Below the pieces are notes generated by a model, which made no database searches, had not been told where the DNA came from, and saw only the letters and a list, made by a program, of their open reading frames with translations. 64,000 bases of DNA, from positions 5,429,001 through 5,493,000 of the forward strand of contig NZ_CP160403.1 of the NCBI RefSeq assembly GCF_040782645.1, written 5' to 3'. How positions within the stretch are numbered: the first letter of the stretch is position 1; each line of letters starts with the position of its first letter. The position numbers were made by a program, and so were the translations under genes. Shown piece by piece: positions 9,668-37,293 of this stretch. The stretch comes from Streptomyces sp. HUAS ZL42. Lineage in GTDB: Bacteria > Actinomycetota > Actinomycetes > Streptomycetales > Streptomycetaceae.

Positions 9668-9682
9668 CTGACAGGCCGTCAG
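9668..9682. promoter_or_regulatory. CTGAC-N5-GTCAG operator, copy 1
   Basis: Perfect inverted repeat CTGAC AGGCC GTCAG in the gap between the divergent thiolase-like and acyl-CoA ligase genes, 30 bases upstream of the thiolase-like start. A second copy follows 27 bases away, so two repressor dimers could sit on roughly the same face of the helix. Confidence 0.8.
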
Positions 9683-9694
9683 GGTACAGCTAAT

Positions 9695-9709
9695 CTGACG
9701 GGTAGTCAG
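9695..9709. promoter_or_regulatory. CTGAC-N5-GTCAG operator, copy 2
   Basis: Perfect inverted repeat CTGAC GGGTA GTCAG, 23 bases upstream of the GTG of the acyl-CoA ligase. With copy 1 it fills most of the 93-base divergent promoter, so one factor could control both directions. Confidence 0.8.
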
Positions 9710-9731
9710 CTACGGGGTTGGGAGGCGTGCT

Positions 9732-11309
9732 GTGCGCGGTGATCTGGAGTGGGGCAGCGTTCCGGGACTCGTCCGGTCCGCGGCCGAGCGCTATCCGGCC
9801 GTCGAGGCGGTGGTGGAGGGCCGTACCCGGATCTCGTACGCGGAGCTCGGCGCCCGTGTCGAGCGGTCGGCGGCGGCCTGCGTCGCAGGCGGCATCGCCC
9901 CGGGCGACCGGGTCGGGATCTGGGCCCCGAACACGCTGGACTGGATCGTGGCCGCGCTGGGCGCGGTCTCAACGGGCGCGGTGCTCGTCCCGATCAACAC
10001 CCGCTTCAAGGGCGCGGAGGCGGCGGACGTGCTGCGCCGTAGCAGGGCCCGGCTGCTGTTCGTGACCGGCACTTTCCTCGGCACGTCGTACGTGGCCTCG
10101 CTGCGCCGCGCGGTCGCGGAGGGGCCGGGGCTGCCGGATCTGGAGCAGGTGGTGGTGCTGTCGGACGACGCACCGGCCGACTACCGCACCTGGAAGGACT
10201 TTCTGGCGGGCGGGGACGGGGTCGGCGAGGCGGAGGTCCGGGCGCGCGCCTCGGCGGTGCAGGGCTCCTGGCCGTCGGACATCGTCTTCACGTCCGGTAC
10301 GACGGGCCGTCCCAAGGGTGCGGTGATCACCCACGCGCAGACGCTGCGGGCGTACGAAGTCTGGTGCGACCTGGCCGGCTTGAGGCAGGGCGACCGCTAT
10401 CTCATCGTGAACCCCTTCTTCCACACGTTCGGCTACAAGGCCGGAGTGATCGCCTGTCTGATGCGCGGCGCGACGATGATCCCGCAGCCGGTGTTCAACG
10501 TCGGCACGGCGCTCGCGAACATCTCGGCGGAACGGGTGTCGGTGCTGCCGGGCCCGCCGACCCTCCACCAGTCGCTGCTGGACCACCCGGCGCGGGACAC
10601 GCACGATCTGTCGGCCCTGCGGCTGGTGGTGACGGGCGCGGCGGTGGTGCCGTTGCAGCTGGTGGAGCGGTTGCGCGGGGAGCTGGGTGTGGAGACGGTC
10701 CTGACCGCGTACGGCCTCTCGGAGGCGAGCGGCATCGTGACGATGTGTCGGCGCGGAGACCCGCTGCCGGTGATCGCCTCGACGTCCGGGCGGGCGATAC
10801 CCGGCACGGAGGTGCGAGTCGAGGCGCCGGTCGGCGAGCCCGGCGAGGTGCTGGTCCGGGGCTTCAACGTCATGCGCGGCTACTACGAGGACGAGACGGC
10901 GACCGCCGAGGTCCTCACACCGGACGGCTGGCTGCGCACGGGCGACGTGGGCGTCCTGGACGAGGCGGGCAACCTCCGCATCACCGACCGCATCAAGGAC
11001 ATGTTCATCGTCGGCGGCTTCAACGCGTACCCCGCGGAGATCGAGCAACTCCTGGGCCTCCACCCGGACGTGGCCGACGTGGCGGTCATCGGCGTACCGG
11101 ACGCCCGGCTCGGCGAGGTCGGCAAGGCGTACGTGGTACGGCGGCAGGGATCGGTACTCACCGCTGACGACCTGATCGCCTGGGCCCGACGCGAGATGGC
11201 CAACTACAAGGTCCCGCGGTCGGTGGAGTTCGTGGGGGAGCTGCCTCGGAACGCGAGCGGGAAAGTGGTGAAGGGGGAGTTGCGGGGGAGCGCCGAGCGT
11301 CGTCCGTGA
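9732..11309 (+). CDS. acyl-CoA ligase (FadD3-like, AMP-binding)
   Basis: A 525-residue adenylating enzyme. It has the P-loop FTSGTTGRPKGAVITH, the YGLSEASG motif, the TGDVGVLDEAGNLRITDR hinge and the C-terminal GKVVKGELR lysine region (NASGKVVKGEL). It converts a carboxylic acid to its CoA thioester with ATP. Overall pattern resembles the actinobacterial FadD3 group, whose characterised member activates a propionate-bearing steroid C/D-ring fragment; that assignment is a family guess. GTG 9732 has GGAGG six bases upstream. Twin CTGAC-N5-GTCAG operators precede it. It is convergent with afsS and separated from it by two strong hairpins. Confidence 0.93.
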   Translation: MRGDLEWGSVPGLVRSAAERYPAVEAVVEGRTRISYAELGARVERSAAACVAGGIAPGDRVGIWAPNTLDWIVAALGAVSTGAVLVPINTRFKGAEAADVLRRSRARLLFVTGTFLGTSYVASLRRAVAEGPGLPDLEQVVVLSDDAPADYRTWKDFLAGGDGVGEAEVRARASAVQGSWPSDIVFTSGTTGRPKGAVITHAQTLRAYEVWCDLAGLRQGDRYLIVNPFFHTFGYKAGVIACLMRGATMIPQPVFNVGTALANISAERVSVLPGPPTLHQSLLDHPARDTHDLSALRLVVTGAAVVPLQLVERLRGELGVETVLTAYGLSEASGIVTMCRRGDPLPVIASTSGRAIPGTEVRVEAPVGEPGEVLVRGFNVMRGYYEDETATAEVLTPDGWLRTGDVGVLDEAGNLRITDRIKDMFIVGGFNAYPAEIEQLLGLHPDVADVAVIGVPDARLGEVGKAYVVRRQGSVLTADDLIAWARREMANYKVPRSVEFVGELPRNASGKVVKGELRGSAERRP

Positions 11310-11331
11310 GCGCGGAGGCGGGCAGCACGGC

Positions 11332-11361
11332 GACGGGGCCGAGCTTTCGCTCGGCCCCGTC
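11332..11361. terminator. strong hairpin between the ligase gene and afsS
   Basis: A perfect 13-bp G/C-rich stem (11332-11344 with 11349-11361) with a TTTC tetraloop, located between convergent genes. Expected to stop transcription from both sides. Confidence 0.75.
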
Positions 11362-11373
11362 CGGACGTATCCC

Positions 11374-11407
11374 GGCCGCGGCGGCTCCCCTCCGGGCCGC
11401 CGCGGCC
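11374..11407. terminator. second hairpin between the ligase gene and afsS
   Basis: A perfect 12-bp stem (11374-11385 with 11396-11407) with a 10-base loop, immediately beside the first hairpin. Together they insulate the catabolic operon from afsS. Confidence 0.65.
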
Positions 11408-11426
11408 GATCCCCGTGTGTGGAGGC

Positions 11427-11609
11427 TTACTTCGTCGGCTTGAAGGGCTCCGACGTGGCGTGCAGGTCCTTGGTCTCGATGGGCTCTTCGGTGGCGTGCA
11501 GGTCCTGGGGCGTCACGTCCGCGTCCGTGGCGTGCAGGTCCTCGGTGGTGACCTCGCCGTCCGTGGTGCCGGTGGCGTGCAGGTCCTGCGGCTTGAGCTC
11601 GTCGCTCAT
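11427..11609 (-). CDS. afsS: AfsS, small sigma-like regulatory protein with four DLHAT repeats
   Basis: A 60-residue acidic protein made of four repeats of (Q/E/K)-DLHAT, with DLHAT at residues 9, 24, 36 and 48. Size, repeat style and position directly downstream of afsR identify it as AfsS, the small pleiotropic activator of antibiotic production whose transcription is switched on by AfsR in S. coelicolor. GGGGAG lies eight bases before the ATG. It has no signal peptide, membrane segment or known DNA-binding fold. The gap upstream holds a PhoP/AfsR-like direct repeat on the same strand. How AfsS acts is unknown; the exact DLHAT repetition suggests a multivalent binding peptide. Confidence 0.9.
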   Translation of the reverse strand: MSDELKPQDLHATGTTDGEVTTEDLHATDADVTPQDLHATEEPIETKDLHATSEPFKPTK

Positions 11610-11794
11610 GTGCTCAACTCCCCTTGAGGCGGTTCAAGTACGTGGACTAGGCGGGGCCCGTCCGGCCACTCCCCCGAGGGTGGCCGGACGGGCCGCCTGG
11701 GCCGCTCACCCTGGTTGGCAGGTGCGAGGGCCTCCGCAGTGACCCGTCTGCCCCCCGACGCGACGGATCGACTGAGTCGAGCATGGCCTGCGGC

Positions 11795-11812
11795 GATAAA
11801 CGAATGATGAAC
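11795..11812 (-). promoter_or_regulatory. PhoP/AfsR-like direct repeat upstream of afsS
   Basis: On the minus strand GTTCATC (11812-11806) and GTTTATC (11801-11795) are spaced exactly 11 bases, the unit length of Streptomyces PHO boxes (GTTCACC-type). In S. coelicolor the afsS promoter is bound by AfsR and PhoP at overlapping sites. The repeat lies about 186 bases before the afsS ATG. Assignment is by pattern, not by experiment. Confidence 0.5.
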
Positions 11813-11831
11813 GCCTCGACCAGGGCCGACC

Positions 11832-12083
11832 GGGCCTGTCCGGCGGATCAAGTCGCAGGGAAGCCGCGGCATCCATGCAGCGCCGGTGAGCGGGGCGATG
11901 GGGGTGCCCCCGCGCGAGGTTGTTCGAGCGTGGGGGAGCGTGCAGTTGCAAGGCGGAGGAGGGAGCCGACGCGGAGCGACGGGGGTCCCTCCCGCTCGAG
12001 CGGAGTCGAGAGTGGGGGAGACCGACGACAACGCGGCGGATGTGCGTGCCGGGCCCCGCGTCCGCGGCATGATCCGCTGGACG
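11832..12083. repeat. composite intergenic repeat region between afsS and afsR
   Basis: This non-coding stretch holds several Streptomyces-type dispersed elements. Bases 11832-11860 recur inverted at 24202-24230 with one mismatch. Bases 12020-12083 recur inverted at 58945-59005 with a few mismatches. Between them are two imperfect hairpin blocks rich in GGGGG/CCCCC and CTCGAGCGG-type loops (about 11896-11940 and 11983-12020). No open reading frame here looks coding. It lies downstream of afsR and upstream of the afsS promoter elements. Confidence 0.6.
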
Positions 12084-12094
12084 GACCCCAGGAC

Positions 12095-15052: not shown

Positions 15053-15234
15053 CGGGGTCCCCCTAGGCATCCTCAACAACTACGTTAGTTTGCCTTGTTC
15101 AGGGCGACTGCGTCAGCCGGGGGAGACGCCGATCACAGGCACTGCGCAGCTGGGCGCACGGGATATCACAAGGCCCTCACACGCTCTCCGCACAGTTCCG
15201 CGCAGATGCGAGCATCACCAGCGCTTCCGCGTAG

Positions 15235-15249
15235 CTGACGCACCGTCAG
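15235..15249. promoter_or_regulatory. CTGAC-N5-GTCAG operator, copy 3
   Basis: Perfect inverted repeat CTGAC GCACC GTCAG (also CTGACG-N3-CGTCAG), 12-21 bases before the amidohydrolase start codons and inside the divergent afsR promoter region. Its position at the core promoter favours repression. Confidence 0.8.
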
Positions 15250-15270
15250 ATCAGCGCTACCGTGGCGGAC

Positions 15271-16497
15271 ATGGAGACCCATGAGACCTTCCCGCTGATC
15301 ATCTCCGTCGACGACCACACCGTCGAACCCCCGAACGTCTGGCAGGACCGCCTCCCGAAGAAGTTCCTGGACACCGGTCCGCGCACGGTCCGCGCGCCAC
15401 TGAAGGAGATGACCTTCCTCGGGGGCCGCTTCAAGCCCGTCATGGGCACTCCCGGCAGCGACGACGGCCCGCTCGGCGACTGGTGGGTCTACGAGGACCT
15501 CCACCGCCCCCTCACCCGCCTCGACACCGCGGTCGGCTACAGCAGGGACGAGATCAAGCTCGAGATCATCACCTACGAGCAGATGCGGCCCGGTTCGTAC
15601 GACGTGCCCGCCCGCCTCGCCGACATGGACGTCAACCACGTCCAGTCGGCCCTCTGCTTCCCCACCTTCCCCCGCTTCTGCGGCCAGACCTTCACCGAGG
15701 CCGAGGACCACGAGCTGGGCATGCTCTGCATCCGGGCCTACAACGACTGGATGGTGGAGGAGTGGTGCGGGCCGGACGCGCGGGGCCGGCTCATCCCCCT
15801 CACCCTCATCCCCCTCTGGGACGCCGAGCTGGCGGCACAGGAGGTCCGGCGCAACGCGGCCCGCGGCGTGCGCGCCGTCGCCTTCTCCGAGATACCCCCG
15901 CACCTCGGCCTGCCCTCCGTCCACACCGACGACTGGGACCCCTTCCTCGCGGCCTGCGCCGAGACCGGCACGGTCATCGCCATGCACATCGGCTCCAGCA
16001 GCCGTATGCCCTCCACCTCCGCCGACGCCCCGCCCGCCGTCGGCTCCACCATCACCTTCGCCAACTGCTGCTTCTCGATGGTGGACTGGCTGATGAGCGG
16101 CAAGTTCGAGCGCTTCCCCGGCCTCAAGGTCATGTACGCCGAGGGGCAGATCGGGTGGATCCCCTACATCCTCGAGCGCGCCGACGTGGTGTGGGAGGAG
16201 AACCGCGGCTGGGGCGGCGTCGCCGACAAGGTCCACCGGCCGCCCTCCGAGCTGTTCGCCGAGCATGTGTACGGCTGTTTCTTCGACGACGCCTTCGGGC
16301 TGCGGAACCTCGACTCCATCGGGGTCGGCAACGTGCTGTACGAGACCGACTACCCCCACTCCGACTCCACCTGGCCGAAGTCCCGCGAGGTCGGCGAGGC
16401 CCAGATGGGGCACCTGGACCCGGAGGTGGTGGAGCGGATCGTCCGGACGAACGCCATCGAGCTGCTGGGACTCACCCCCGAAGGACTGTGGCGGTGA
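15271..16497 (+). CDS. amidohydrolase (ACMSD-like metal-dependent hydrolase)
   Basis: A 408-residue amidohydrolase-2 family protein. It begins LIISVDDHTVEPPNVW (in place of the usual DxH metal motif this subgroup has D-D-H), contains VIAMHIGSSSRMPS with a metal-ligand His and ends with a YETDYPHSDSTWP segment carrying the catalytic Asp. Members decarboxylate or hydrolyse C-C or C-N bonds; actinobacterial steroid and lipid clusters commonly include this type, with unknown reaction. Either GTG 15262 or ATG 15271 could be the start; neither has a clear ribosome-binding site. First gene of a run of three overlapping or closely spaced genes controlled from operator copy 3. Confidence 0.88.
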   Translation: METHETFPLIISVDDHTVEPPNVWQDRLPKKFLDTGPRTVRAPLKEMTFLGGRFKPVMGTPGSDDGPLGDWWVYEDLHRPLTRLDTAVGYSRDEIKLEIITYEQMRPGSYDVPARLADMDVNHVQSALCFPTFPRFCGQTFTEAEDHELGMLCIRAYNDWMVEEWCGPDARGRLIPLTLIPLWDAELAAQEVRRNAARGVRAVAFSEIPPHLGLPSVHTDDWDPFLAACAETGTVIAMHIGSSSRMPSTSADAPPAVGSTITFANCCFSMVDWLMSGKFERFPGLKVMYAEGQIGWIPYILERADVVWEENRGWGGVADKVHRPPSELFAEHVYGCFFDDAFGLRNLDSIGVGNVLYETDYPHSDSTWPKSREVGEAQMGHLDPEVVERIVRTNAIELLGLTPEGLWR

Positions 16498-17417
16498 CCG
16501 CCCTCTCGTACGGCATGCAGCTCCCCGTCCAGTCCCAGAGCACGATCTACGCCGAGCCCTGGGAGGCCGCCGCCGGTCCCGACGACCTGGTCGCCATCGC
16601 CCGGGTCGCCGACCGCTCCGGCTTCGGTTACCTCGCGAGCTGCGACCACGTGGCCATCCCGCGCCGGCTCGCCTCCGCGATGAGCACGGTCTGGTACGAC
16701 CCCGTCGCCACGCTCGCGTATGTGGCGGCTGTGACCGAGCGGGTGCGGCTGCTCAGTCACGTGGCCGTGGTCGGACTGCGGCATCCGCTCCTGACCGCCA
16801 AGCAGTACGCCACCCTCGACCACCTCAGCAAGGGGCGGCTGATCCTCGGGGTCGGGGCCGGACATGTGCAGGAGGAGTTCGAGGCGCTGGGAGTGGACTT
16901 CCGGCAGCGCGGTGCCGTGCTCGACGAGTGCGTCGACGCCCTGCGGGCCGCCCTCGGCCCGGACGAGTTCCCCGAACACCACGGCAAGTTCTACGACTTC
17001 GAGGGACTCGGCCAGCGCCCCAGGCCGGCCCAGCGGCACGTCCCCCTCTGGGTCGGCGGCTCCTCACCCGCCGCCGTGCGCCGGGCCGCGCTCAAGGGCG
17101 ACGGGTGGCTCCCGCAGGGAGACCCGCGGGACCGGCTGCCCGAGCAGATCGCCCGCATCAGGCGGCTGCGGACCGAGGCAGGCATCGATGAGCCGCTGAC
17201 CATCGGCGCCATCACCGAGCCGTTGTACGTCGGCACACCCGCCTGGGACGTCGGCCGGCGCACCCTCACGGGCCCCGCGGACGCACTCGCCGAGTCCCTG
17301 CGGGCGTACCGCGCGATGGGCGTGCACCAGATCCAGGTGCGGTTCCGCTGCCGGAGCCGCACCGAACTCACCGACCAGATGGCGGCCTTCGGCGCCGAAG
17401 TGGCGCCCGACCTCTGA
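16494..17417 (+). CDS. LLM class F420-dependent oxidoreductase
   Basis: A 307-residue luciferase-like monooxygenase superfamily protein (TIM barrel). The pattern YGMQLPVQSQSTIYAEPWE, then DHVAIPRR, LSHVAVVGLRHPLLTAKQ, LDHLSKGRLILGVGAGH is that of the F420-dependent reductase subgroup. It likely oxidises an alcohol or reduces an enone with F420. Its GTG overlaps the amidohydrolase stop (GTGA) and the SDR begins 10 bases after its end, so the three form an operon. Cofactor choice is inferred from family resemblance and from the fbiC gene nearby. Confidence 0.9.
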   Translation: MTALSYGMQLPVQSQSTIYAEPWEAAAGPDDLVAIARVADRSGFGYLASCDHVAIPRRLASAMSTVWYDPVATLAYVAAVTERVRLLSHVAVVGLRHPLLTAKQYATLDHLSKGRLILGVGAGHVQEEFEALGVDFRQRGAVLDECVDALRAALGPDEFPEHHGKFYDFEGLGQRPRPAQRHVPLWVGGSSPAAVRRAALKGDGWLPQGDPRDRLPEQIARIRRLRTEAGIDEPLTIGAITEPLYVGTPAWDVGRRTLTGPADALAESLRAYRAMGVHQIQVRFRCRSRTELTDQMAAFGAEVAPDL

Positions 17418-17427
17418 GGAGTACCGC

Positions 17428-18204
17428 ATGGGCAAGCTCGACGGACGAGTCGTCCTCGTCACCGGCGCCGCACGCGGCCAGGGGGAGCGGGAGGCCCGGC
17501 TGTTCAGGCAGGAGGGGGCCGAGGTCGTGGTCGCCGACGTCCTCGACGACCAGGGCGCGGCCCTCGCCGAGGAGATCGGCGCGCTCTTCGTCCACCTCGA
17601 CGTGGGCCGGGAGGCCGACTGGCGCTCCGCCGTCACCGCGGCCAAGAGGGCGTACGGCCGCATCGACGGGCTGGTCAACAACGCGGGCATCCTGCGCTTC
17701 AACTCGCTCGTCGACACACCGCTCGACGAGTTCATGCAGGTCGTCCAGGTCAACCAGGTCGGCTGCTTCCTCGGCGTCAGGACCCTCGCGCCGGTGATCG
17801 CCGCCGCGGGCGGCGGGACGATCGTCAACACCGCCTCGTACACCGGCGTGACCGGCATGGCCGCAGTGGGCTCCTACGCGGCGACCAAGCACGCGATCCT
17901 CGGCCTCACCCGCGTCGCCGCCCTGGAACTGGCGCACCAGAACATACGCGTCAACGCCATGTGCCCCGGCGCCATCGACACCGCGATGTCCAACCCCTCC
18001 CAGCTCGACCCGGACGCGGACGCCGGCGAGACCTCGCAGGCCCTGGACGCGCTCTATCGCAAGCTGGTGCCGCTCGGCCGGATCGGGAGGCCGGAGGAGG
18101 TGGCCCGGCTGGCGCTCTTCCTCACCTCCGAGGAGTCCTCCTACATCACCGGGCAGCCGTTCGTGATCGACGGAGGGTGGCTGGCCGGGGTTTCGGTTCT
18201 CTGA
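17428..18204 (+). CDS. SDR family oxidoreductase (hydroxysteroid dehydrogenase-like)
   Basis: A 258-residue classical short-chain dehydrogenase. It has the NAD(P) motif VTGAARGQGEREA at residues about 11-22, NNAGI, the catalytic Ser in NTASYTGVTG, YAATK with Tyr and Lys, and the closing PFVIDGGW. The N-terminal VTGAARGQG and the overall length are those of 3-alpha/20-beta-hydroxysteroid dehydrogenase-like SDRs, which oxidise or reduce secondary alcohols; the true substrate is not known. A GAGGAG lies before the ATG. Its stop codon is within operator copy 4, so the following gene starts a new transcription unit. Confidence 0.92.
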   Translation: MGKLDGRVVLVTGAARGQGEREARLFRQEGAEVVVADVLDDQGAALAEEIGALFVHLDVGREADWRSAVTAAKRAYGRIDGLVNNAGILRFNSLVDTPLDEFMQVVQVNQVGCFLGVRTLAPVIAAAGGGTIVNTASYTGVTGMAAVGSYAATKHAILGLTRVAALELAHQNIRVNAMCPGAIDTAMSNPSQLDPDADAGETSQALDALYRKLVPLGRIGRPEEVARLALFLTSEESSYITGQPFVIDGGWLAGVSVL

Positions 18205-18215
18205 CGCATCGTCAG
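18201..18215. promoter_or_regulatory. CTGAC-N5-GTCAG operator, copy 4
   Basis: Perfect repeat CTGAC GCATC GTCAG that overlaps the stop codon of the SDR gene. It forms a pair with copy 5, 62 bases downstream, ahead of the LLM oxidoreductase gene. Confidence 0.75.
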
Positions 18216-18262: not shown

Positions 18263-18277
18263 CTGACGGTGTGTCAG
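18263..18277. promoter_or_regulatory. CTGAC-N5-GTCAG operator, copy 5
   Basis: Perfect repeat CTGAC GGTGT GTCAG, 26 bases upstream of the TTG start of the LLM oxidoreductase. It marks this as a separate regulated promoter. Confidence 0.8.
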
Positions 18278-18302
18278 AAGAGACTGGGGACGGTGACTCT
18301 CC

Positions 18303-19421
18303 TTGGAATTCGGGCTGTTTGTACAGGGATACGTGGGCAAGCGCGCCGAGACCGACCCGCTCGCCGAGCACAAGGCGCTGATGGAGGAGACCGAGTACGT
18401 CATCCAGGCGGACCGGTCCGGCTTCAAGTACGCCTGGGCGTCCGAGCACCACTTCCTGGAGGAGTACTCCCACCTCTCGGCCAACGACGTCTTCCTCGGC
18501 TACCTCGCCCACGCGACGGAACGCATCCACCTCGGGTCGGGGATCTTCAACCCCCTCGCCCAGGTCAACCACCCGGTGAAGGTCGCCGAGAAGGTCGCCA
18601 TGCTCGACCACCTCTCCAAAAACCGCTTCGAGTTCGGGTCCGGCCGCGGCGCCGGCTCCCACGAGATCCTCGGCTTCCTCCCGGGCGTGACGGACATGAA
18701 CTACACCAAGGAGATCTGGGAGGAGACGATCGCCGAGTTCCCCAAGATGTGGCTGCAGGACGAGTACGCCGGCTTCCAGGGCAAGCACTGGCAGCTGCCG
18801 CCGCGCAAGATCCTGCCCAAGCCGTACGGCAGGTCGCACCCCGCGATGTGGTACGCGGCCGGATCGCCGCCGTCGTACGCCATGGCCGCGAAGAAGGGGC
18901 TCGGGGTGCTCGGCTTCAGCATCCAGAAGGTGTCCGACATGGAGTGGGTGCTCGAGCAGTACAAGACGGCGATCGTGAACGCCGAGCCGATCGGGGACTT
19001 CGTCAACGACAACGTGATGGTGACGACGACGGCGATCTGTGCGCCCACGCACGACGAGGCGATCTCCATTGCCGTGAACGGCGGGCTGCACTATCTGCCC
19101 TCGCTGGTGTTCCGGTACCACGACACCTTCCCGCGGCCCGAGGGATTCCCCGTGTGGCCGGAGACGCTGCCCGAGTACACGGCCGAGTTCGTCGAACTCC
19201 TCGTGGAGGAGGAGCTGCTGATCTGCGGCGACCCGGACGAGGTGCTGCGGCAGTGCAAGCGGTGGGAGCAGGCGGGAGCCGATCAGTTGAGTTTCGGGCT
19301 GCCGGTGGGGGTGCCGAAGGAGGAGACGCTGCAGACGATTCGGCTGATCGGGGAGCACGTGATTCCGAAGATCGATACGGATCCTGTGCATCGGACTACG
19401 CGGTTCCGTCAGGCCGCTTGA
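18303..19421 (+). CDS. LLM class flavin-dependent oxidoreductase
   Basis: A 372-residue bacterial-luciferase-like protein, longer than the F420 type upstream and more like the FMN-dependent group (EFGLFVQGYVGKRAE start, AWASEHHFLEEYSHLS with the conserved H-H, LDHLSKNRFEFGSGRGAG). Members oxygenate or desaturate organic substrates. The TTG start is forced because an in-frame stop lies at 18294. Two operators precede it. The downstream amidohydrolase is 98 bases away behind a dispersed repeat, so cotranscription is possible but not certain. Confidence 0.88.
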   Translation: MEFGLFVQGYVGKRAETDPLAEHKALMEETEYVIQADRSGFKYAWASEHHFLEEYSHLSANDVFLGYLAHATERIHLGSGIFNPLAQVNHPVKVAEKVAMLDHLSKNRFEFGSGRGAGSHEILGFLPGVTDMNYTKEIWEETIAEFPKMWLQDEYAGFQGKHWQLPPRKILPKPYGRSHPAMWYAAGSPPSYAMAAKKGLGVLGFSIQKVSDMEWVLEQYKTAIVNAEPIGDFVNDNVMVTTTAICAPTHDEAISIAVNGGLHYLPSLVFRYHDTFPRPEGFPVWPETLPEYTAEFVELLVEEELLICGDPDEVLRQCKRWEQAGADQLSFGLPVGVPKEETLQTIRLIGEHVIPKIDTDPVHRTTRFRQAA

Positions 19422-19519: not shown

Positions 19520-21250
19520 ATGCTCGATCACGTCATCAAGGGGGCGACCGTCGTCGACGGGACGGGAGCGCCCGCCTGCACTGCGGACGTCGGTATCCGG
19601 GAGGGCCGAATCGCCGCCGTCGGGACCATCACCGAAGAGTCCCGTACCACCGAGGACGCCACCGGACTCGTCCTCGCCCCCGGCTTCGTCGACCCCCACA
19701 CCCACTACGACGCGCAGCTCTTCTGGGACCCGTACGCCACTCCCTCCCTGAACCATGGAGTGACCACGGTCGCGGCCGGGAACTGCGGGTTCACCCTCGC
19801 GCCCCTGAATCCCGCACGCCCCGAGGACGCCGACTACACCCGCCGCATGATGTCCAGGGTGGAGGGCATGTCCCTGGTCGCGCTGGAGGAGGGCGCGCCC
19901 TGGAGCTGGCACGGATTCGGGGAGTACCTGGACGCACTGGAGGGCCGGATCGCCGTCAACGCGGGCTTCATGGTGGGGCACTGTGCCCTGCGGCGTTACG
20001 TGATGGGCCCGGACGCGGTGGGCGGGCGGCCGAGCGACGAGCAGCTCGCGGAGATCGTCCAGTTGCTCCACGAGGCGATGGACGCGGGTGCCTGGGGCTT
20101 CTCCACCACGCAGTCGACGACACACTCCGACGGTGACGGGCGGCCGGTGGCGTCGAGGCACGCCGAGCCGGCGGAGCTGCTCGCGCTCTCGAAGGCGGTC
20201 GGCGAGCACGAGGGCACGCAGATCGAGGCGATCGTCGCGGGATGCTTGGACCAGTTCAGCGACGCGGAGATCGACCTGTTCGTGGAGATGAGCGCGACCG
20301 CGGGACGCCCCCTGAACTGGAACGTCCTGACCATCGACGCGACCGTGCCCGAGCGTGTGCCCCGGCAGCTGACGGCCAGCGAGCGGGCGCGGAAGGCGGG
20401 CGGCCGGGTGGTGGCCCTGACCATGCCGATCCTCACCCCGATGAACATGTCCCTGGGCACGTTCTGCGCGCTGAACCTGATCCCGGGATGGGGGCCGGTC
20501 CTCGGCCTTCCGGTCCCGGAACGGATCGAGCGGCTCCGCGACCCCTCCGTGCGCGCGGAGATGCTGAGGCGGGCCGACTCGAAGGAGGCGGGCGTCTTCC
20601 GGCGGCTGGCGAACTTCGGGCGGTACGTCATAGGCGACACGTACAGCCCGCAGAACGAGGGCCTCACCGGACGGGTCGTGGGCGACATCGCGGCGGAACG
20701 CGGCCAGGACCCCTTCTCCTGCCTGGTGGAGATCTGCGCGGCCGACGACCTGCGTACCGTCCTGTGGCCGATGCCCACCGACAACGACCCGGCGTCCTGG
20801 GCGCTGCGGGCCGAGACCTGGCAGCACGAGGACGTGCTGCTCGGCGGCTCCGACGCGGGCGCGCACCTGGACCGCATGTGCGGAGCCCCCTACACGACAC
20901 GCTTCATCGGCGACTGTCTGCGCGGCCGGAGGCTGGTGGGCCTGGAACAGGCGGTGAAGATGCTGACGGACGACCCGGCGCGGCTGTTCGGGCTGCGCGG
21001 CCGGGGCCGGATCGAGGAGGGCTTCCATGCGGACCTGGTCCTCTTCGACCCGGAACGGATCGACGCCGGCAAGGCCACCCTGGTGCACGACCTGCCGGGT
21101 GAGAGTCCGCGGCTGGACTCCCGGGCGATCGGGGTGCGGGCCGTGTGGGTCAACGGGGTGGAGGCGATGCGGGACGACGTGGTGACGGGCGCCGTGCCGG
21201 GGAAGGTGCTGCGCTCCGGGCGGGACACCGAGACGGTGAGCACGAAGTGA
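19520..21250 (+). CDS. D-aminoacylase family amidohydrolase
   Basis: A 576-residue amidohydrolase of the N-acyl-D-amino-acid deacylase group. It has the metal motif GFVDPHTHYDAQ (His 60 and 62), a MVGHCALRRYVMG segment, the GGSDAGAHLDRM motif late in the barrel and a C-terminal beta-domain (HADLVLFDPERID). Reported activities in this family include deacylation of D-amino acids, but many members in lipid or steroid neighbourhoods have no assigned reaction. GGGAGG precedes the ATG. Its stop overlaps the GTG of the aldehyde dehydrogenase, so they are coupled. Confidence 0.88.
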   Translation: MLDHVIKGATVVDGTGAPACTADVGIREGRIAAVGTITEESRTTEDATGLVLAPGFVDPHTHYDAQLFWDPYATPSLNHGVTTVAAGNCGFTLAPLNPARPEDADYTRRMMSRVEGMSLVALEEGAPWSWHGFGEYLDALEGRIAVNAGFMVGHCALRRYVMGPDAVGGRPSDEQLAEIVQLLHEAMDAGAWGFSTTQSTTHSDGDGRPVASRHAEPAELLALSKAVGEHEGTQIEAIVAGCLDQFSDAEIDLFVEMSATAGRPLNWNVLTIDATVPERVPRQLTASERARKAGGRVVALTMPILTPMNMSLGTFCALNLIPGWGPVLGLPVPERIERLRDPSVRAEMLRRADSKEAGVFRRLANFGRYVIGDTYSPQNEGLTGRVVGDIAAERGQDPFSCLVEICAADDLRTVLWPMPTDNDPASWALRAETWQHEDVLLGGSDAGAHLDRMCGAPYTTRFIGDCLRGRRLVGLEQAVKMLTDDPARLFGLRGRGRIEEGFHADLVLFDPERIDAGKATLVHDLPGESPRLDSRAIGVRAVWVNGVEAMRDDVVTGAVPGKVLRSGRDTETVSTK

Positions 21251-22698
21251 GCGACGGGCAGCGGCTGTTCGTCGGTGGCGCGTGGGTGGAGCCGGACGGC
21301 GGCCACTACCAGGTGGTCGACCCGGCGACCGAGGAGACCGTCGGGTGGGCACCGGAGGCCTCGCGGGATCAGGTGCACGCGGCCTGCGCCGCGGCCCGCG
21401 AGGCCTTCGGACCGTGGTCGGGCACCGCGCCGGAGGAACGGGCGGCGGTGCTGGCACGCACGGCGGAGATCATCGGAGAGCGCTTCCTGCCGTACGCCGA
21501 CCTGGCCCGGGCGGAGACCGGGGCGACGACCGGGACGGCGCGCGGCATGCAGGTGGGCGTCGGGGCCGCCCGCTTCCGTCGGTACGCGCGCGTGGAGCCC
21601 GCCGAGTGGGCGATCCCGCCGCAGATCAACGAGGCCGGCCCGATGGGGAGGGCGGGCGTGATGGGCGCCCTCGCCCTGCGGCAGCCCGTCGGGGTCGTCA
21701 CCTGCATCACGTCGTACAACAACCCGTGGGCCAACCCCGCCGGAAAGATCGCACCGGCGCTGGCGATGGGCAACACGGTGGTGGTGAAACCGGCTCCGCA
21801 GGACCCGCTGTCGGTCTACCGCATGGCGGAGGCCCTCGAGGCGGCGGGCGCCCCGCCGGGAGTGGTGAACGTGGTCTCGGGCCGTTCGGCCGAGGTCGGC
21901 GAGGCGGCCGTGGACTCACCGGACGTCGACATGGTCAGCTTCACGGGATCGACGGCGGTGGGACAGCGCATCGCCGAGGTGTGCGGCCGGGCGATGAAAC
22001 GCCAGCTGATGGAGCTGGGCGGCAAGGGCGCGGCGGTCGTCTTCGACGACGCGGACATCGGGTCGGCGGTGGCGGGGATCGGCACGACGTTCTCGTTCTA
22101 CAGCGGACAGATCTGCACGGCGCCGACGAGGGTGCTGGCGCAGCGGGGCGTCTACGACCGCCTGGTCGAACAACTGGCGGCGTACGCACGCCGGTTGAAG
22201 GTGGGCGACCCGCGCGAGCCGGACACGGTGGTGGGCCCGGTGATCTCGGCGGCGCACCGCGACCGGGTGGAGTCGTACGTCGAACTGGGCCGCAAGGAGG
22301 GCGCGGTGGTCGTCACCGGCGGCGAACGGCCGTCGGCCGACCGGGGTTTCTACGTCGGCCCCACTCTCCTCGCCGACTGCACGAACGACATGCGCGTGGC
22401 CCGGGAGGAGATCTTCGGCCCGGTGGTGTCCGTCATCCCCTTCGACGAGGAGGACGAGGGCGTGGCCCTCGCCAACGACACCGACTACGGCCTCATCGAC
22501 TATGTCTGGTCGGCCGACGTCGCCCGAGCCTTCCGCGTCGCCCGCCGACTGCGGGCCGGCGGCGTCGGCATCAACACGGTCGGCCGCAACATGGAGGCAC
22601 CGTTCGGCGGCTTCAAGAAGAGCGGGGTGGGCCGGGACGTGGGCTCGTACGCCCTGCACGCGTACAGCGAGGTGCAGGCGATCGTGTGGCCGGGGTGA
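21247..22698 (+). CDS. aldehyde dehydrogenase family protein
   Basis: A 483-residue NAD(P)-dependent aldehyde dehydrogenase. Visible motifs are the cofactor-binding VVKPAPQDPLSVYRMA, the general base Glu in LMELGGKGAAVVF, the catalytic Cys in YSGQICTAPTRVL and the C-terminal EIFGPVVSVIPFD and NMEAPFGGFKKSGVG. It oxidises an aldehyde to an acid, or to an acyl product in cluster context. It starts at a GTG overlapping the previous stop (GTGA). The gene is convergent with the reductase at 22725. Confidence 0.93.
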   Translation: MSDGQRLFVGGAWVEPDGGHYQVVDPATEETVGWAPEASRDQVHAACAAAREAFGPWSGTAPEERAAVLARTAEIIGERFLPYADLARAETGATTGTARGMQVGVGAARFRRYARVEPAEWAIPPQINEAGPMGRAGVMGALALRQPVGVVTCITSYNNPWANPAGKIAPALAMGNTVVVKPAPQDPLSVYRMAEALEAAGAPPGVVNVVSGRSAEVGEAAVDSPDVDMVSFTGSTAVGQRIAEVCGRAMKRQLMELGGKGAAVVFDDADIGSAVAGIGTTFSFYSGQICTAPTRVLAQRGVYDRLVEQLAAYARRLKVGDPREPDTVVGPVISAAHRDRVESYVELGRKEGAVVVTGGERPSADRGFYVGPTLLADCTNDMRVAREEIFGPVVSVIPFDEEDEGVALANDTDYGLIDYVWSADVARAFRVARRLRAGGVGINTVGRNMEAPFGGFKKSGVGRDVGSYALHAYSEVQAIVWPG

Positions 22699-29904: not shown

Positions 29905-30026
29905 GAGGCACACCTTGACAGAGTCCACCGACAGGCTGCCCCGACGCCGAACCGGCGCTCATCGTCCCCGCCTGGCCCGGGTCATAACGGCCCGAGACGC
30001 CTTTCAGACTCGCTTTGCGGCGTAGG

Positions 30027-31024: not shown

Positions 31025-31137
31025 CTTCGCCCCTCCCGTCGTACGAGCCGTACGGACCGGCCCCACGTCCGGACAGTCACGGTCCGTACTGGGGTCGTTG
31101 CTGTTCAGCGTAGGTACGCGTGGCCACGCTGGGTGAC

Positions 31138-31572: not shown

Positions 31573-31810
31573 CCCGGCCTCGCCCGAGGCCAAAGACAAA
31601 GAACCGGGGAAAGAACCAACCGCCCCACCCAGCCCGTCACCAACGCGCCCCTGGTCACCCGGTCGAGTGATGGCGTTCAATTCGGCTGGCTGTCGGCGAA
31701 TTGGTCGGGCAGCGTCAGCCTCGACAGACAACCGCACACATGAAACGGCCCCCGCCGGGACGCCAATCCCGAACGAGGGCCTGTTCACCGAGGAAGAAGA
31801 GAGCTTCCCG

Positions 31811-32635: not shown

Positions 32636-32734
32636 AGACGGGAACCGAGCCCCATGACAAGCGCTGCCCGAGCACCGCGCCACCGACTCCGCCGGTACCG
32701 TACGACGACCGAGCCCCCCGCACCGGAGGTCACC

Positions 32735-33082
32735 GTGAGCGCCCAGACCGACGGCCCGAACGGACCGCTGATCCCCATGCCCGAACTCACCCCGGACGCC
32801 CTGCGGGCAGCGGTCATGCGCATCGCGTCGAGCCGGGTCCCGGCCCTCACGCAGCACCTCTTCGAGGCCACGACAAATGCTCAGCAGACGCAGAGCCTTG
32901 CACCGCTGCGAGCCTTCGTGCACTCCTGGGCGGTGTTCGTGGCGATCGAACGGCATCCGGAACGCGCCGCCCGGCTGCGTGAGCTGGAGCGGATCGTGGA
33001 CGCGGGGGAGCAGGACCCGGCAGAGGCCATCGCTGAGATCCAGGCGATCCGGAAGGCGGCCGAGGCGGAGGCTGGGCTGTGA
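32735..33082 (+). CDS. small conserved protein (DUF6247-like)
   Basis: A 115-residue, mainly helical protein: PMPELTPDALRAAVMRIASS, FVHSWAVFVAIERHPERAAR, then a Glu/Ala-rich tail. GGAGG lies five bases before GTG 32735, which decides the start over the ATG at 32654. It resembles a Streptomyces family (I recall it as DUF6247) that is paired with a small downstream gene in a toxin-antitoxin-like order. Its stop overlaps the start of such a downstream frame. Confidence 0.65.
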   Translation: MSAQTDGPNGPLIPMPELTPDALRAAVMRIASSRVPALTQHLFEATTNAQQTQSLAPLRAFVHSWAVFVAIERHPERAARLRELERIVDAGEQDPAEAIAEIQAIRKAAEAEAGL

Positions 33083-33207
33083 CGGATTGGGCATGGGACT
33101 ACAACCCGAGTGCCGAGTACGTCACCGGCGGGCGCGGTTTCATCAGCTTTCTGGCCGTACCACGCCATGAGTGCGTCTACTCCTGCAATGTCACCTGGGA
33201 CGGGTGA
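33079..33207 (+). pseudogene. 42-residue remnant of the DUF6247 partner gene
   Basis: A short frame starts at GTG 33079, overlapping the previous stop. It encodes a DWAWDYNPSAEYV start and a FISFLAVPRHECVYSCNVTW end. From memory, full partners of this family are about 100 residues with the same two ends, so the middle seems deleted. It may still be translated. The identification rests on recalled family pattern, so confidence is low. Confidence 0.4.
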
Positions 33208-33330
33208 TAACTGACCTCCCGGGACCACTTCGGCACACCTCACATACCATTCCGCCCCCTGAACCGACCGTTCCCGGTCGATTACAGTGGCGAACGTCGT
33301 ACGTGCGGACGGTGCCCTTGGGAGGTCTTG

Positions 33331-34455
33331 GTGGGTGCGACAGCCGGCGCCGTCTGGGGCCGTACCGAGCAGCAGGACTTCCGCAGCCGGGTGCGCGGCA
33401 CGCTGCTCGGCGCTGCTGTCGGGGACGCGCTCGGGGCGCCCGTCGACGGGCCCGCCCTCGACGTGATCAGGGAGACGTACGGCGCGGAGGGCGTCGTCGA
33501 CCTCGCCCCCGCCTACGGACGGCGTGGCGTCGTCACCCACCTCACCCAGCTCACCCTGTTCACCGTGGACGGGCTGATCCGCGCCCAGGTCCGCCGCGAC
33601 ACCGGCGCCTGGCACCCGCCGACCGATCTGCACCGGGCGTATCTGCGCTGGGCCGCCACCCAGCACGACTGGGGCCCCGACGAGCGCCGCAAGGACGACG
33701 GCTGGCTGGCACGCGAGGAGTGGCTGTACGCCCGGCGGGATCCGCCCCGGGCCCTGCTGCTCGGCCTGGGCGACGAGACCATGGGCACGCTGGACGCGCC
33801 CAAGAACCCCGGCGAGCTCGGCCCCGAGGCGGCCGCCCGCTCCGCCCCCTTCGGGCTGCTCGTCGGCTGGGAGCCGCAACTGGTGGCGCAGCTGGCCGTG
33901 GAGTGCGCGGCCCAGACCCACGGCCACCCCACCGCCTGCCTCGCGGCGGGCGGGTACGCCGTCGTCGTACACGCGCTGGCCCTCGGAGAGAACCTCGACG
34001 CGGCCGTGCAGCGCGCGCTCGCCCTCCTCGCCGCCCGGCCCGGTCACCAGCCCGTGTCGGACGCCCTCCAGCATGCGCTGGGCGCCGTACGGCAGGGGAT
34101 ACCGACTCCGGCCAGGGTGGAGGAACTCGCCGGAAACGGTACGGCGGACGGGGTGCTGGCGGCCGCCGTGTACTGCGCCCTCGTCGCGGAGGACGTCCGC
34201 CACGGTCTGCGCCTGGCCGTGAACCATTCCGGCCCCTCCGCCACGACCGCCGCCCTGACCGGCGGCCTGCTCGGCGCCCTCCACGGCGAGACGGCCCTCC
34301 CCCCGGCCTGGCTGGCCGAGCTGGAGGGCCGGCCCACCGTCCTGGAACTGGCGGACGACTTCGCGATGGAGATGACCCAGGGCCCGGCTCTGCACGGCCC
34401 CGCAGGGGCATCGCCGGGCTGGCTGGCACGATATCCGCGGGGCGGGACGGGCTGA
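33331..34455 (+). CDS. ADP-ribosylglycohydrolase family protein
   Basis: A 374-residue DraG-like protein. The N-terminal VRGTLLGAAVGDALGAPVDG holds the first family motif; LTQLTLFTVDGLIRA, AARSAPFGLLVG and AVNHSGPSATTAALTGGLLGALHG are later conserved parts. DraG enzymes remove ADP-ribose from proteins using two Mg ions. The usual Asp-Asp pair after GDS(T) in the C-terminal metal motif reads NHSGPSATTA here, so activity may be altered. GGAGG is five bases before GTG 33331. Confidence 0.85.
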   Translation: MGATAGAVWGRTEQQDFRSRVRGTLLGAAVGDALGAPVDGPALDVIRETYGAEGVVDLAPAYGRRGVVTHLTQLTLFTVDGLIRAQVRRDTGAWHPPTDLHRAYLRWAATQHDWGPDERRKDDGWLAREEWLYARRDPPRALLLGLGDETMGTLDAPKNPGELGPEAAARSAPFGLLVGWEPQLVAQLAVECAAQTHGHPTACLAAGGYAVVVHALALGENLDAAVQRALALLAARPGHQPVSDALQHALGAVRQGIPTPARVEELAGNGTADGVLAAAVYCALVAEDVRHGLRLAVNHSGPSATTAALTGGLLGALHGETALPPAWLAELEGRPTVLELADDFAMEMTQGPALHGPAGASPGWLARYPRGGTG

Positions 34456-34719
34456 TTCGCGTCCAGCCGCGGGCGCGGGCTGAGGGGACGGGTTTCGCCC
34501 CCGCCGCCCCTACCCGTCCCCTCCCAGGGGCTCCGCCCCTTCGACCCCGATCGGCCTGAACGGCCTCGTCCTCAAACGCCGGACGGGCTGAGTTCCGTCC
34601 AGCCGCGGGCATGCGTGCCTCCCCCACTGCCTTAAGGGCGTGGGAGGGTGGGCGCGGGCGGCACCCCGGTAGCGCCGGGTTGCGCGGCCCACCTCAGGCC
34701 CGCACCAACCCCCCGCACC
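34456..34719. repeat. dispersed Streptomyces repeats between convergent genes
   Basis: This non-coding gap consists of typical Streptomyces intergenic elements: about 34490-34595 (with GGCTCCGCCCC and GGCCTGAACGGCCTCGTCC) and a 45-base element at 34648-34692 that recurs at 45861-45905. Self-complementary ends suggest transcription termination between the convergent ADP-ribosylglycohydrolase and symporter genes. Confidence 0.55.
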
Positions 34720-36297
34720 TCACAACCCCGCGTCGTTCTTCACCGGCGACGCATCCGCGGCCCCGCCCACCGGAACCGGGATCGCCGCAGCCGCCCCGTC
34801 CCCGTCCGAGTTGATCCGCTCGATGATCGCCAGGCGCTCCGGCGTGTCCTCCGGCTTCAGGAACCCGACGAGGACGTACAGCACGAGCGACACCGCCAGC
34901 GGCACCGACACCTGGTACTGCAACGGCACCCCACCGTCGACGTTCCAGCTGATCGGATAGTTGACCAGCCAGAAGGCCAGCAACCCCATCGACCAGCTCA
35001 CCAGCGCAGCCGTCGGCCCCGACCGCCGGAACGGCCGCAGCAGCCCCAGCATCATCGGAATCGCCATCGGCCCCATCAACCCGGCCACCCACCTGATGAC
35101 GACGGTGATGATGTCCTTGAACGTCGGCGAGTTCACCTGCGTCGCCGCGGCCATGGACAGCCCGAGGAACACGACGGTGGTCACCCGCGCCGCGAGCAGG
35201 CCCGAACGCTGACTCCAAGCCCGCGCCCGCGCCCACACCACCGGCGCACAGTCCCGTGTGAACACCGCGGCGATCGCGTTCGCGTCCGACGAGCACATCG
35301 CCATCGTGTGCGAGAAGAACCCGACGATGACCAGCCCCAACAGCCCGTGCGGCAGCAGCTGTTCGGTCATCAGGGCGTACGAGTCCGAGCCGTCCGTCTT
35401 CTGCGACGTGACCAGCAGCGGCGACATCCACATGGGGAAGAACAGCACGAGCGGCCACACCAGCCACAGCACGGCCGACAGCCGCGCCGACCGCTCCGCC
35501 TCACGCGGGGTCGCCGTGGCCATGTACCGCTGCGCCTGGTTGAGCATGCCGCCGTTGTACTCGAAGAGCTTGATGAAGAGGAACGCGAGCAGGAAGACCG
35601 TCCCGTACGGCCCCACCAGCGGCTTCCCATGCCCCTGCAGCGCCGGCTCGTCCCACGCTCCGAGGAACCCGATGCCCTTGTCGTTCAGTTTGAGTACGAC
35701 GGCCACGAACATCGCGATTCCGGCGAGGAGTTGGATGACGAACTGGCCCAACTCCGTCAGCGCGTCCGCCCACAGGCCGCCGATCGTGCAGTAGACGGCG
35801 GTGATCGCACCGGTGATGAGGATGCCCTGGTTCAGCGATATACCCGTGAAGACGGACAGCAGCGTCGCGATGGCGGCCCACTTCGCGCCCACGTCCACGA
35901 TCTTCAGCAGCATCCCGGACCAGGCCAACGCCTGCTGCGTGGCCAGGTTGTAACGGTTCTTCAGATATTCCAGCGGGGACGCCACACGCAGCCGCGACCG
36001 CAGCCGGTTGATACGCGGCGCGAACAGCTTCGACCCGATGGCGATGCCCAGGGCGATCGGGAAGGACCAGGTCACGAAGGACGTCACGCCGTAGCTGTAG
36101 GCGATGCCCGCGTACCCGGTGAACATCACCGCGCTGTAGCCCGACATGTGGTGCGAGATGCCGGACAGCCACCACGGCATCTTCCCGCCCGCCGTGAAGA
36201 AGTCGCTGACGTCGTCCACCCGCTTGTGCGACCAGACGCCGATCGCGACCATCACACCGAAGTAGCCGATGAGCACGGCCCAGTCGAGACCGTTCAT
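34720..36297 (-). CDS. sodium:solute symporter family protein
   Basis: A 525-residue integral membrane protein with about 13 hydrophobic segments, in the SSS family (LDWAVLIGYFGVMVAIGVWS start; GYSAVMFTGYAGIAYSYG; ATLLSVFTGISLNQGILITG). SSS proteins take up sugars, amino acids or related solutes with Na+. The FTAGGKMPWWLSGISHHMSG segment is the conserved first intracellular region. ATG 36297 has a purine-rich AGGGGG a few bases upstream. The cargo is not predictable; the closest feel is the glucose/galactose-type group. Confidence 0.9.
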   Translation of the reverse strand: MNGLDWAVLIGYFGVMVAIGVWSHKRVDDVSDFFTAGGKMPWWLSGISHHMSGYSAVMFTGYAGIAYSYGVTSFVTWSFPIALGIAIGSKLFAPRINRLRSRLRVASPLEYLKNRYNLATQQALAWSGMLLKIVDVGAKWAAIATLLSVFTGISLNQGILITGAITAVYCTIGGLWADALTELGQFVIQLLAGIAMFVAVVLKLNDKGIGFLGAWDEPALQGHGKPLVGPYGTVFLLAFLFIKLFEYNGGMLNQAQRYMATATPREAERSARLSAVLWLVWPLVLFFPMWMSPLLVTSQKTDGSDSYALMTEQLLPHGLLGLVIVGFFSHTMAMCSSDANAIAAVFTRDCAPVVWARARAWSQRSGLLAARVTTVVFLGLSMAAATQVNSPTFKDIITVVIRWVAGLMGPMAIPMMLGLLRPFRRSGPTAALVSWSMGLLAFWLVNYPISWNVDGGVPLQYQVSVPLAVSLVLYVLVGFLKPEDTPERLAIIERINSDGDGAAAAIPVPVGGAADASPVKNDAGL

Positions 36298-36457
36298 GAG
36301 CCCCCTTCCAGGGTCCGCCGCCAGGGTCAGGCATGTGAACTCTGGGTTCGGTGGCATGCGCACGGCAAGGAAGGGGTAGGTCAAGAGGGGGTAAAATAGT
36401 TCCGCGCGGTGACCTGAGTTTACGTATATGAACTCCAGGTTGGCTGAAAAGAACAGG

Positions 36458-37243
36458 TCAGCGCATCAGCTCCCCGGCGTTCACCAGCAGCGACTGCCCG
36501 GTGATGGCGCGCGCCCGGTCCGAGGCGAGGAACACCGCCGCATCCGCGACATCCCCGTCCGTGGCCAGATCCGGCAGGGCCATCCGCTCGGTGAGCCGCC
36601 CCAGCACCTCACCCTCCGGCACCCCCTCCGTCTGCGCGCTGAACTGCACATACGCCTGGACCGGCGGCCCCCACATCCACCCCGGCAGCACGGTGTTGAC
36701 CCGGATCCGGTGCGGCCCGAGCTCCCGCGCCAGCGAGTACATCGCGCTCGTCAGCGCCCCTTTGGAGGCCGCGTATGCCGCCTGCCGCACCTGCGAGGGC
36801 GCGGCGACCGCCGACTGGGTCCCGATGAAGACGACCGACCCCCCGCACACCTTCAACGCCGGCAGGCAGGCCCGTGTCATCCGCAGCGTCCCCAGCAGAT
36901 TGACGTCGATCACGGACTGCCAGGTCGCGAAGTCGGCGTCCGCGAGCCCGCCGAAGTAGGAGTCCCACGCCGCCACATGCACCACGGCGTCGATACCCCC
37001 GAACCGCTCCCGCGCCAGCCCCGCCAGCGCCTCGCACTGCCCCTCGTCGGTGATGTCGGTCGCCCGGTACGCCGTGCGCGCCCCGTCCGGATCGATCTCG
37101 GCGGCACTCTTGGCGAGGTTGGCCTCGGTCCGGGCCCCGAGCACGGCATTCCCTCCGTCCCGTACGACGGCGGCCGCGACCCGGTGGCCGAGCCCGGCCC
37201 CGACCCCCGATACGACGACGGTCTTGCCCGCGAGCAGTGACAT
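36458..37243 (-). CDS. SDR family oxidoreductase
   Basis: A 261-residue SDR: cofactor motif VVSGVGAGLGHRVA near residues 10-22, VNLLGT, catalytic Ser in FIGTQSAVAAP, YAASK and RVNTVLPGWMWGP, and the C-terminal TGQSLLVNAG. The glycine motif (SGVGAGLG) is slightly unusual but intact. GGGAGGG lies five bases before the ATG. Operator copy 6 sits 36 bases upstream, in the divergent promoter shared with the protein at 37338, so it belongs to the CTGAC-N5-GTCAG set. Confidence 0.9.
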   Translation of the reverse strand: MSLLAGKTVVVSGVGAGLGHRVAAAVVRDGGNAVLGARTEANLAKSAAEIDPDGARTAYRATDITDEGQCEALAGLARERFGGIDAVVHVAAWDSYFGGLADADFATWQSVIDVNLLGTLRMTRACLPALKVCGGSVVFIGTQSAVAAPSQVRQAAYAASKGALTSAMYSLARELGPHRIRVNTVLPGWMWGPPVQAYVQFSAQTEGVPEGEVLGRLTERMALPDLATDGDVADAAVFLASDRARAITGQSLLVNAGELMR

Positions 37244-37278
37244 CGGATCCCTCCCCGGCCTCAGGGCTGGCGCATTAT

Positions 37279-37293
37279 CTGACGGAGCGTCAG
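37279..37293. promoter_or_regulatory. CTGAC-N5-GTCAG operator, copy 6
   Basis: Perfect repeat CTGAC GGAGC GTCAG in the 94-base divergent gap between the SDR and the unknown protein at 37338. It lies 36 and 45 bases from the two start codons, so one dimer could control both. Confidence 0.8.

Follow-up and report, generated by a model that had tools for sequence, protein, structure and literature searches.

The 64-kb window of the Streptomyces sp. HUAS ZL42 genome (by window we mean the whole stretch of DNA analyzed) contains six exact copies of the inverted repeat CTGAC-N5-GTCAG. Two are located in the divergent promoter of a thiolase-type gene and an acyl-coenzyme A (CoA) ligase gene, one precedes an amidohydrolase gene, two precede a luciferase-like gene, and the last separates a short-chain dehydrogenase (SDR) gene from gene 37338 (Table 1). 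The same window encodes a TetR-type protein, designated here TetR A. CoA, luciferase-like and Ltp2/ChsH2-type catabolic genes appear to be joined through these sites in a conserved regulon with a common operator, a reading that is well supported by the sequence comparisons described below. We consider it likely that one TetR-type repressor, TetR A, uses the repeats as its operators and acts on catabolic operons.

Table 1. Operator sites, proposed regulator and neighboring genes in the 64-kb window
Feature	Position	Strand	Basis or remark
TetR A, proposed regulator	2511..3158	-	PF00440 + PF19352; positional counterpart of SCO4421, near afsK
9/10 site overlapping TetR A start codon	3152..3166		possible self-control
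Ltp2-like lipid-transfer / thiolase-type aldolase	8490..9638	-	NCBIfam lipid-transfer protein above cut-off (frame 8490-9644)
Operator site 1, divergent thiolase / acyl-CoA ligase promoter	9668..9682		exact match
Operator site 2, divergent thiolase / acyl-CoA ligase promoter	9695..9709		exact match; 22 bp from start at 9732
FadD3-family acyl-CoA ligase	9732..11309	+	NCBIfam NF005801, 801 bits vs cut-off 657
Operator site before Amidohydro_2 gene, intergenic region common with afsR	15235..15249		exact match
Amidohydro_2 enzyme	15262..16497	+	PF04909
Luciferase-like monooxygenase family enzyme	16494..17417	+	PF00296
SDR dehydrogenase	17428..18204	+	PF13561
Distal operator site before luciferase-like gene	18201..18215		exact match; overlaps last bases of SDR gene 17428-18204
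Proximal operator site before luciferase-like gene	18263..18277		exact match
Luciferase-like monooxygenase family enzyme	18333..19421	+	PF00296 on longer frame from 18303
Amidohydro_3 enzyme	19520..21250	+	PF07969
Aldehyde dehydrogenase	21247..22698	+	NCBIfam aldehyde dehydrogenase models under their cut-offs, longer frame 21145-22698
SDR dehydrogenase	36458..37243	-	NCBIfam NF005909, 342 bits vs 258
Operator site between SDR 36458-37243(-) and gene 37338-38183(+)	37279..37293		exact match
Regulon protein without family match	37338..38183	+	no Pfam (E up to 0.01) or NCBIfam (1e-10) match

The repeats were first listed in an initial annotation made from the sequence alone, and an exact pattern match found all six copies where it had placed them. 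The distance to the nearest called start ranges from 12 to 117 bp. For five sites it is within 60 bp, in keeping with the distance of about 100 bases originally claimed; the site at 18201, at 117 bp, exceeds it. Flanks described as mostly CTGACG-N3-CGTCAG have exactly that form in only three of the six copies. The neighbors had all been called CoA/F420-type genes: CoA-type genes are indeed present, but gene 37338, beside site 37279, has no family match, and the F420 label is not supported, none of the F420/FMN luciferase-like models reaching its cut-off on the frame 18303-19421.

Base composition at the measured G+C content of 70.9% predicts 0.057 copies of the repeat per 64 kb, in agreement with the earlier estimate of about 0.06; 100 shuffles of the window gave a mean of 0.09 copies and a maximum of one. 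The Poisson probability of at least six copies is about 4e-11 by composition and 1.5e-6 when calculated against the genome's own density. The complete HUAS ZL42 genome (one contig, 9.87 Mb) contains 52 forward copies versus four of the reversed control, with about 8.8 expected from the window composition. Fifty of these were mapped to genes, using gene calls made within this analysis for all coding and non-coding counts, and the remaining two were left out. Equal abundance of the motif inside coding sequence had been named as the observation that would speak against a regulon; the genome scan placed 31 of the 50 mapped copies outside called genes, versus 17% non-coding sequence in the same DNA (P about 3e-12). 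Copies of the form CTGAC-R-N3-Y-GTCAG were extragenic in 20 of 26 cases. For the remaining copies the figure was 11 of 24, so chance probably accounts for some of them. Ten of the 50 mapped copies fall in the 5.36-5.47 Mb region: the six window sites and four further perfect sites up to 70 kb upstream of them. A 9/10 copy at window position 63194-63208, inside the called gene 62849-64000 (-), is probably a chance occurrence.

The regulon extends beyond the part of the window marked in the initial annotation. At least eight intergenic sites elsewhere in the genome adjoin genes similar to the window targets. The neighbors of these extragenic copies include luciferase-like genes, an FAD-binding dehydrogenase, AMP-ligases, a MaoC dehydratase, a protein combining ChsH2-type and FAS1-dehydratase domains, an Amidohydro_2 gene that has an acyl-CoA dehydrogenase, a CoA-ligase-like protein and an enoyl-CoA hydratase with a flavin reductase behind it, a ferredoxin-reductase-like enzyme, a PNPOx-like gene and an isochorismatase gene, and an AMP-ligase accompanied by an enoyl-CoA hydratase. 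A Thiolase_C_1 protein is encoded 404 bp from one genome copy. Some intergenic copies, e.g. those at 4196548, 4766039, 7570979 and 8936289, have no catabolic-type neighbor. Between two site-bearing blocks, from L028:17588 to L044:17735 (L numbers are our locus handles), there are ketosynthase-like, acyl-carrier, ketoreductase and monooxygenase genes, which by eye look like a cluster of type II polyketide type.

Conservation of the sites was analyzed at orthologous promoters in 197 genomes of the class. Homologues were picked by protein search without use of the motif, and a site was called perfect when it had all ten fixed bases. The thiolase had a match in 50 genomes, and the loci of 30 of these were fetched: a perfect upstream site was present in 11 of the 30, namely all 11 Streptomyces orthologues, seven of which had the pair with 27-bp spacing. 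The amidohydrolase had a match (E 1e-40) in 58 of the 197 genomes, and 21 of the 30 homologues fetched, including the 18 most similar, carried a perfect upstream site; these span four of our numbered families, f1 (Streptomyces), f14, f18 and f4. For the luciferase-like gene the site was perfect in 15 of 27 loci (25 of the 27 with upstream DNA) and in 11 of 11 Streptomyces, and in all 11 of the latter a distal site with 9 or 10 of ten bases was found 53-65 bp further upstream. Relatives of the gene 37338 product were present in 23 of the 197 genomes; the site was perfect at 10 of these 23 loci and 9/10 at four more, with ten perfect sites and one 9/10 site in the 11 Streptomyces orthologues. 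Overall, the results for these four genes indicate that the site tracks close orthologues, plus some distant ones for two of the four.

The regions around TetR A in 80 named Streptomyces loci (1.34 Mb in total) contained 178 sites versus none for the reversed controls. The 9668/9695 pair with its 27-bp spacing is kept in 49 of the 53 named loci reaching far enough. A 53-row alignment of such pairs was not accepted as evidence for the dyad arms, being circular: its rows were chosen for having both dyads 27 bp apart. In this alignment the bases between the two dyads were also highly conserved.

The initial annotation had guessed at a TetR-type regulator and named none; the best candidate, TetR A, is encoded in the same window. 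TetR A scores 26.7 bits with PF00440 (cut-off 24) and 245 bits with PF19352, TetR_C_38 (cut-off 23.9). Its AlphaFold model, with a mean pLDDT of 90.5, has an EthR-like fold and matched the solved TetR repressor fold. The 24 best Foldseek hits are to EthR, a TetR repressor of Mycobacterium tuberculosis (TM 0.74-0.80 by query length), which is also the best PDB sequence match of TetR A, for the helix-turn-helix (HTH) part only; identity is low (18-19%), and the comparison with EthR covered fold and sequence. The HTH (recognition helix) segment GTSPATFYQYF is invariant in 12 aligned rows from four families and in a set of 37 rows. Two of the TetR A relatives come from sources labeled Mycobacteriales bacterium and Frankiales bacterium.

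To quantify co-occurrence, TCTGAC-N5-GTCAGA was defined as the strict site, as distinct from the shorter motif CTGAC-N5-GTCAG, and two TetR genes, A and B, were compared with it. Among the 197 genomes, TetR A was present in 24 of the 25 with at least two strict sites versus 13 of the 172 others (five Streptomyces and eight genomes from f4, f18 and f22). Fisher P values, in which shared ancestry is ignored, were 2e-20 for all genomes, 1e-13 without Streptomyces and 6e-9 when both Streptomyces and f13 were left out. Several families show the same pattern; outside Streptomyces TetR A was found in 13 of the 14 genomes with at least two strict sites, five of them from f13. TetR B (L028:4690-5247), the second TetR near the sites, was rejected as the regulator: in a hand-picked set of 40 genomes it was present in just three and TetR A in 29. 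Within the 16 Streptomyces genomes, 11 hold all four tested targets and have 1-10 strict sites, and the five without these targets have 0-2. Thus the original proposal of one regulon with a common operator finds strong support in the genome-wide enrichment, the sites at orthologous promoters and the joint occurrence of motif, targets and TetR A.

Sites were also observed at the TetR A gene itself. The sequence CTGACnnCATGACAG is present at its start in 80 of 80 named Streptomyces loci, and 15 of 16 unnamed Streptomyces copies have the self site at 9/10. We give this little weight because the whole TetR A upstream region is conserved in Streptomyces. In f14, a site within about 60 bp of the match start was found at all seven TetR A copies fetched (five 9/10 and two 10/10), and in the f13 genus g44 a 9/10 or 10/10 self site was present at two of two copies. 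The single f18 copy fetched (G100) had no self site within 100 bp.

A further connection was found at the ipd operon of steroid ring C/D catabolism. The genes next to ipdA are named by resemblance, and the IpdA assignment was made from the solved relatives 6co6 and 6con, which we take to be IpdAB structures. A CTGAC site (two 10/10 and two 9/10) was found at the echA20-ipdA-ipdB-ipdC-like operon in four of four f14 genomes checked, versus none of nine ipdA loci in Streptomyces, f18 and f4 genomes at 9/10 or 10/10. In two f14 genomes (G036 and G140) TetR A adjoins an SDR gene, a site and the echA20-ipdA-ipdB-ipdC-like genes; in two others (G013 and G109) the distance from TetR A to ipdA, on a single contig, does not exceed about 3 kb, and a 9/10 site is present. 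In six f14 genomes no clear KstR2 was found, the search giving one weak match (32%). A KstR2-like gene was found in six of eight Streptomyces, four of four f18 and the one f4 genome tested. The ipd cluster of HUAS ZL42 (L259:6291-11865; 7.32-7.33 Mb) itself includes a KstR2-like gene (solved KstR2 4w97, E 5e-58). Control of this cluster through the CTGAC repeat was rejected for Streptomyces, with no site of at least 9/10 in 20 kb of the HUAS ZL42 genome or at five other Streptomyces ipdA loci. In two Streptomyces genomes the divergent promoter of the cluster contains CCAAACnTTTGTTAGG, unlike the mycobacterial KstR2 dyad. The Rv numbers in the KstR2 paper presumably correspond to the echA20, ipdA, ipdB and ipdC genes. 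Ring C/D genes are under KstR2 in mycobacteria, with AnCAAGnnCTTGnT as the operator, in the available text of PMC3068626, and echA20-ipdA-ipdB-ipdC are assigned to KstR2 in Nocardioides in that of PMC7807495. The core of the published KstR2 dyad (PMC3068626) precedes both the ipd genes and the KstR2-like gene in the f18 genome G111. Together these gene arrangements point to a regulator swap at the ipd operon between lineages. In G111 the products of L261:4020-4385 and 11406-11771, encoded in opposite orientation, have identical first 60 residues and flank regulon-type genes.

The regulon described here resembles that of KstR2 (steroid ring C/D catabolism in mycobacteria and rhodococci) in having a TetR repressor, a short palindrome near starts in divergent promoters and CoA-type catabolic genes. 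The operators differ: AnCAAGnnCTTGnT for KstR2 and CTGAC-N5-GTCAG here. TetR A was rejected as KstR2 itself: it has 23% identity over 112 residues (E 8e-4) to the HUAS ZL42 KstR2-like protein, which is encoded by a separate gene, and the operator is different. It was also rejected as KstR, with no NCBIfam match at E up to 1e-10, the KstR model included; the f14 genome G036 has a KstR-like protein of its own (180 bits, under the cut-off of 280). The KstR regulon of cholesterol catabolism is similar in being a large TetR regulon for the degradation of lipids and steroids, as far as the available parts of PMC1995591 and PMC3068626 go. MftR, an acyl-CoA-responsive TetR, differs in its operator core, given as GGCA-N5-TGCC in the available text of PMC8728441.

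We infer from these data how the proposed system would work. Every CTGAC-N5-GTCAG dyad, the common form being ATCTGACR-N3-YGTCAGAT, would be occupied at or near the promoter by a TetR A dimer. Bound TetR A would block operons for the Ltp2-type aldolase with ChsH2-like partners, acyl-CoA ligases, acyl-CoA dehydrogenases and enoyl-CoA hydratases, as well as luciferase-like enzymes, amidohydrolases, SDRs and the aldehyde dehydrogenase. It would be released by a pathway intermediate, most likely an acyl-CoA formed from a substrate that is a bulky lipid or steroid-like.

A number of observations weigh against this model. The upstream site was absent from all 19 thiolase homologues with 45-49% identity, two of them in f14 genomes with TetR A, from several f14 luciferase-like genes, and from the gene 37338 homologues of f14 or f2 (8 of 8) and of the f18 genome G056. 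Five genomes with TetR A lack a perfect amidohydrolase site: in G162 and G181 TetR A is only 33-36% identical, G100 has a 9/10 site, and in G130 and G132 the best amidohydrolase homologue fetched is 51-52% identical. No site was found at the three TetR A promoters of the f13 genus g13. All 16 Streptomyces keep TetR A, including five (G089, G123, G133, G153 and G163; 83-88% identity) in which the amidohydrolase, the thiolase, the luciferase-like gene and gene 37338 were all absent at the cut-offs used. Either a smaller target set remains there or TetR A has another role; in two of the five the shorter motif still occurs 11 and 18 times (controls 4 and 2). Conversely, G150, G152 and G170 have sites at target promoters and no TetR A match; all three assemblies are fragmented and one is 68% complete.

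The last two observations also favor a true regulon whose sites are read by another regulator, a different TetR or a member of another family. Co-occurrence covered TetR A and B only, and at first look there were 71 candidate TetR A places in the HUAS ZL42 genome, so that a tightly co-inherited competitor could exist. However, the association of TetR A with the sites outside Streptomyces, the self sites at every f14 copy fetched and the position of TetR A next to the site-bearing ipd operon in f14 argue against this alternative, which we regard as unlikely.

Another improbable alternative is that TetR A activates transcription from the sites it binds, or that its main role is in sporulation and the catabolic genes are minor targets. 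The placement of the window sites so near to called starts would hinder transcription, as is usual for operators of TetR repressors, and speaks for repression. The alternative draws on SCO4421 of Streptomyces coelicolor, a TetR gene near afsK (SCO4423) that occupies the same position as TetR A and is its counterpart by position: it is whiA-dependent, its promoter is active in spore chains and not in vegetative hyphae, and deleting it had no phenotypic effect under the conditions used, which also counts against our model (PMC3878966, available text). The same text reports no operator or regulon for SCO4421 and calls its function unclear.

A reading of the repeats as terminator-like hairpins or as a dispersed repeat is very improbable: an inverted repeat could form a small stem, and two f13 genomes contain hundreds of copies, but next to catabolic genes the HUAS ZL42 copies are located upstream of starts, and their position and spacing are conserved in relatives. 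The two f13 genomes, G012 and G085 (e.g. L074-L076), have 296 and 473 copies versus 3 and 7 controls, some between converging genes or inside called genes, unlike the regulon pattern and a further difficulty for the operator model. As the abundance of the motif in f13 has another cause, we set this family aside as evidence for the regulon.

With regard to the remaining genes of the window, the best solved relative of the 8490-9638 product is the lipid-transfer protein 6ok1 (E 5e-99), which we take to be Ltp2. The genes 19520-21250 and 21247-22698 probably belong to the operon of the luciferase-like gene 18333-19421, judging from their spacing. The afsR and amidohydrolase genes have the intergenic region 15053-15262 in common, and because it contains site 15235 the regulator might also touch afsR. 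In S. coelicolor the locus numbers suggest little space between afsK and afsR for thiolase and ligase genes.

In the open-licence literature searched, the CTGAC-N5-GTCAG motif had no match and half-site matches looked unrelated. Judged by title or the start of the abstract, no open-licence paper was found that describes the regulon (SCO4421, KstR-type regulators of Streptomyces, kbpA/afsK, acyl-CoA TetR), and the main text of PMC4482099, on mycobacterial TetR regulators, contains none of three motif strings. Within this literature, the impression that the regulon is undescribed holds.

On a broader reading, which we regard as possible rather than probable, TetR A may be a third master regulator of steroid/lipid-type catabolism in Actinomycetia beside KstR and KstR2, with an operator of its own. 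In f14, with KstR2 lost, the ring C/D ipd operon would have come under its control; in Streptomyces, encoded near afsK/afsS/afsR and made in spores, TetR A would tie lipid breakdown to development and secondary metabolism. Under the repressor model, an orphan developmental regulator whose deletion gave no phenotype gains an operator and, in HUAS ZL42, about 15 promoter regions as candidate targets, which makes its function directly testable. Another conserved operator would be added to actinomycete lipid and steroid catabolism. Finally, the regulon groups target enzymes, several of them without an assigned substrate, so that the substrate can be sought for them jointly.

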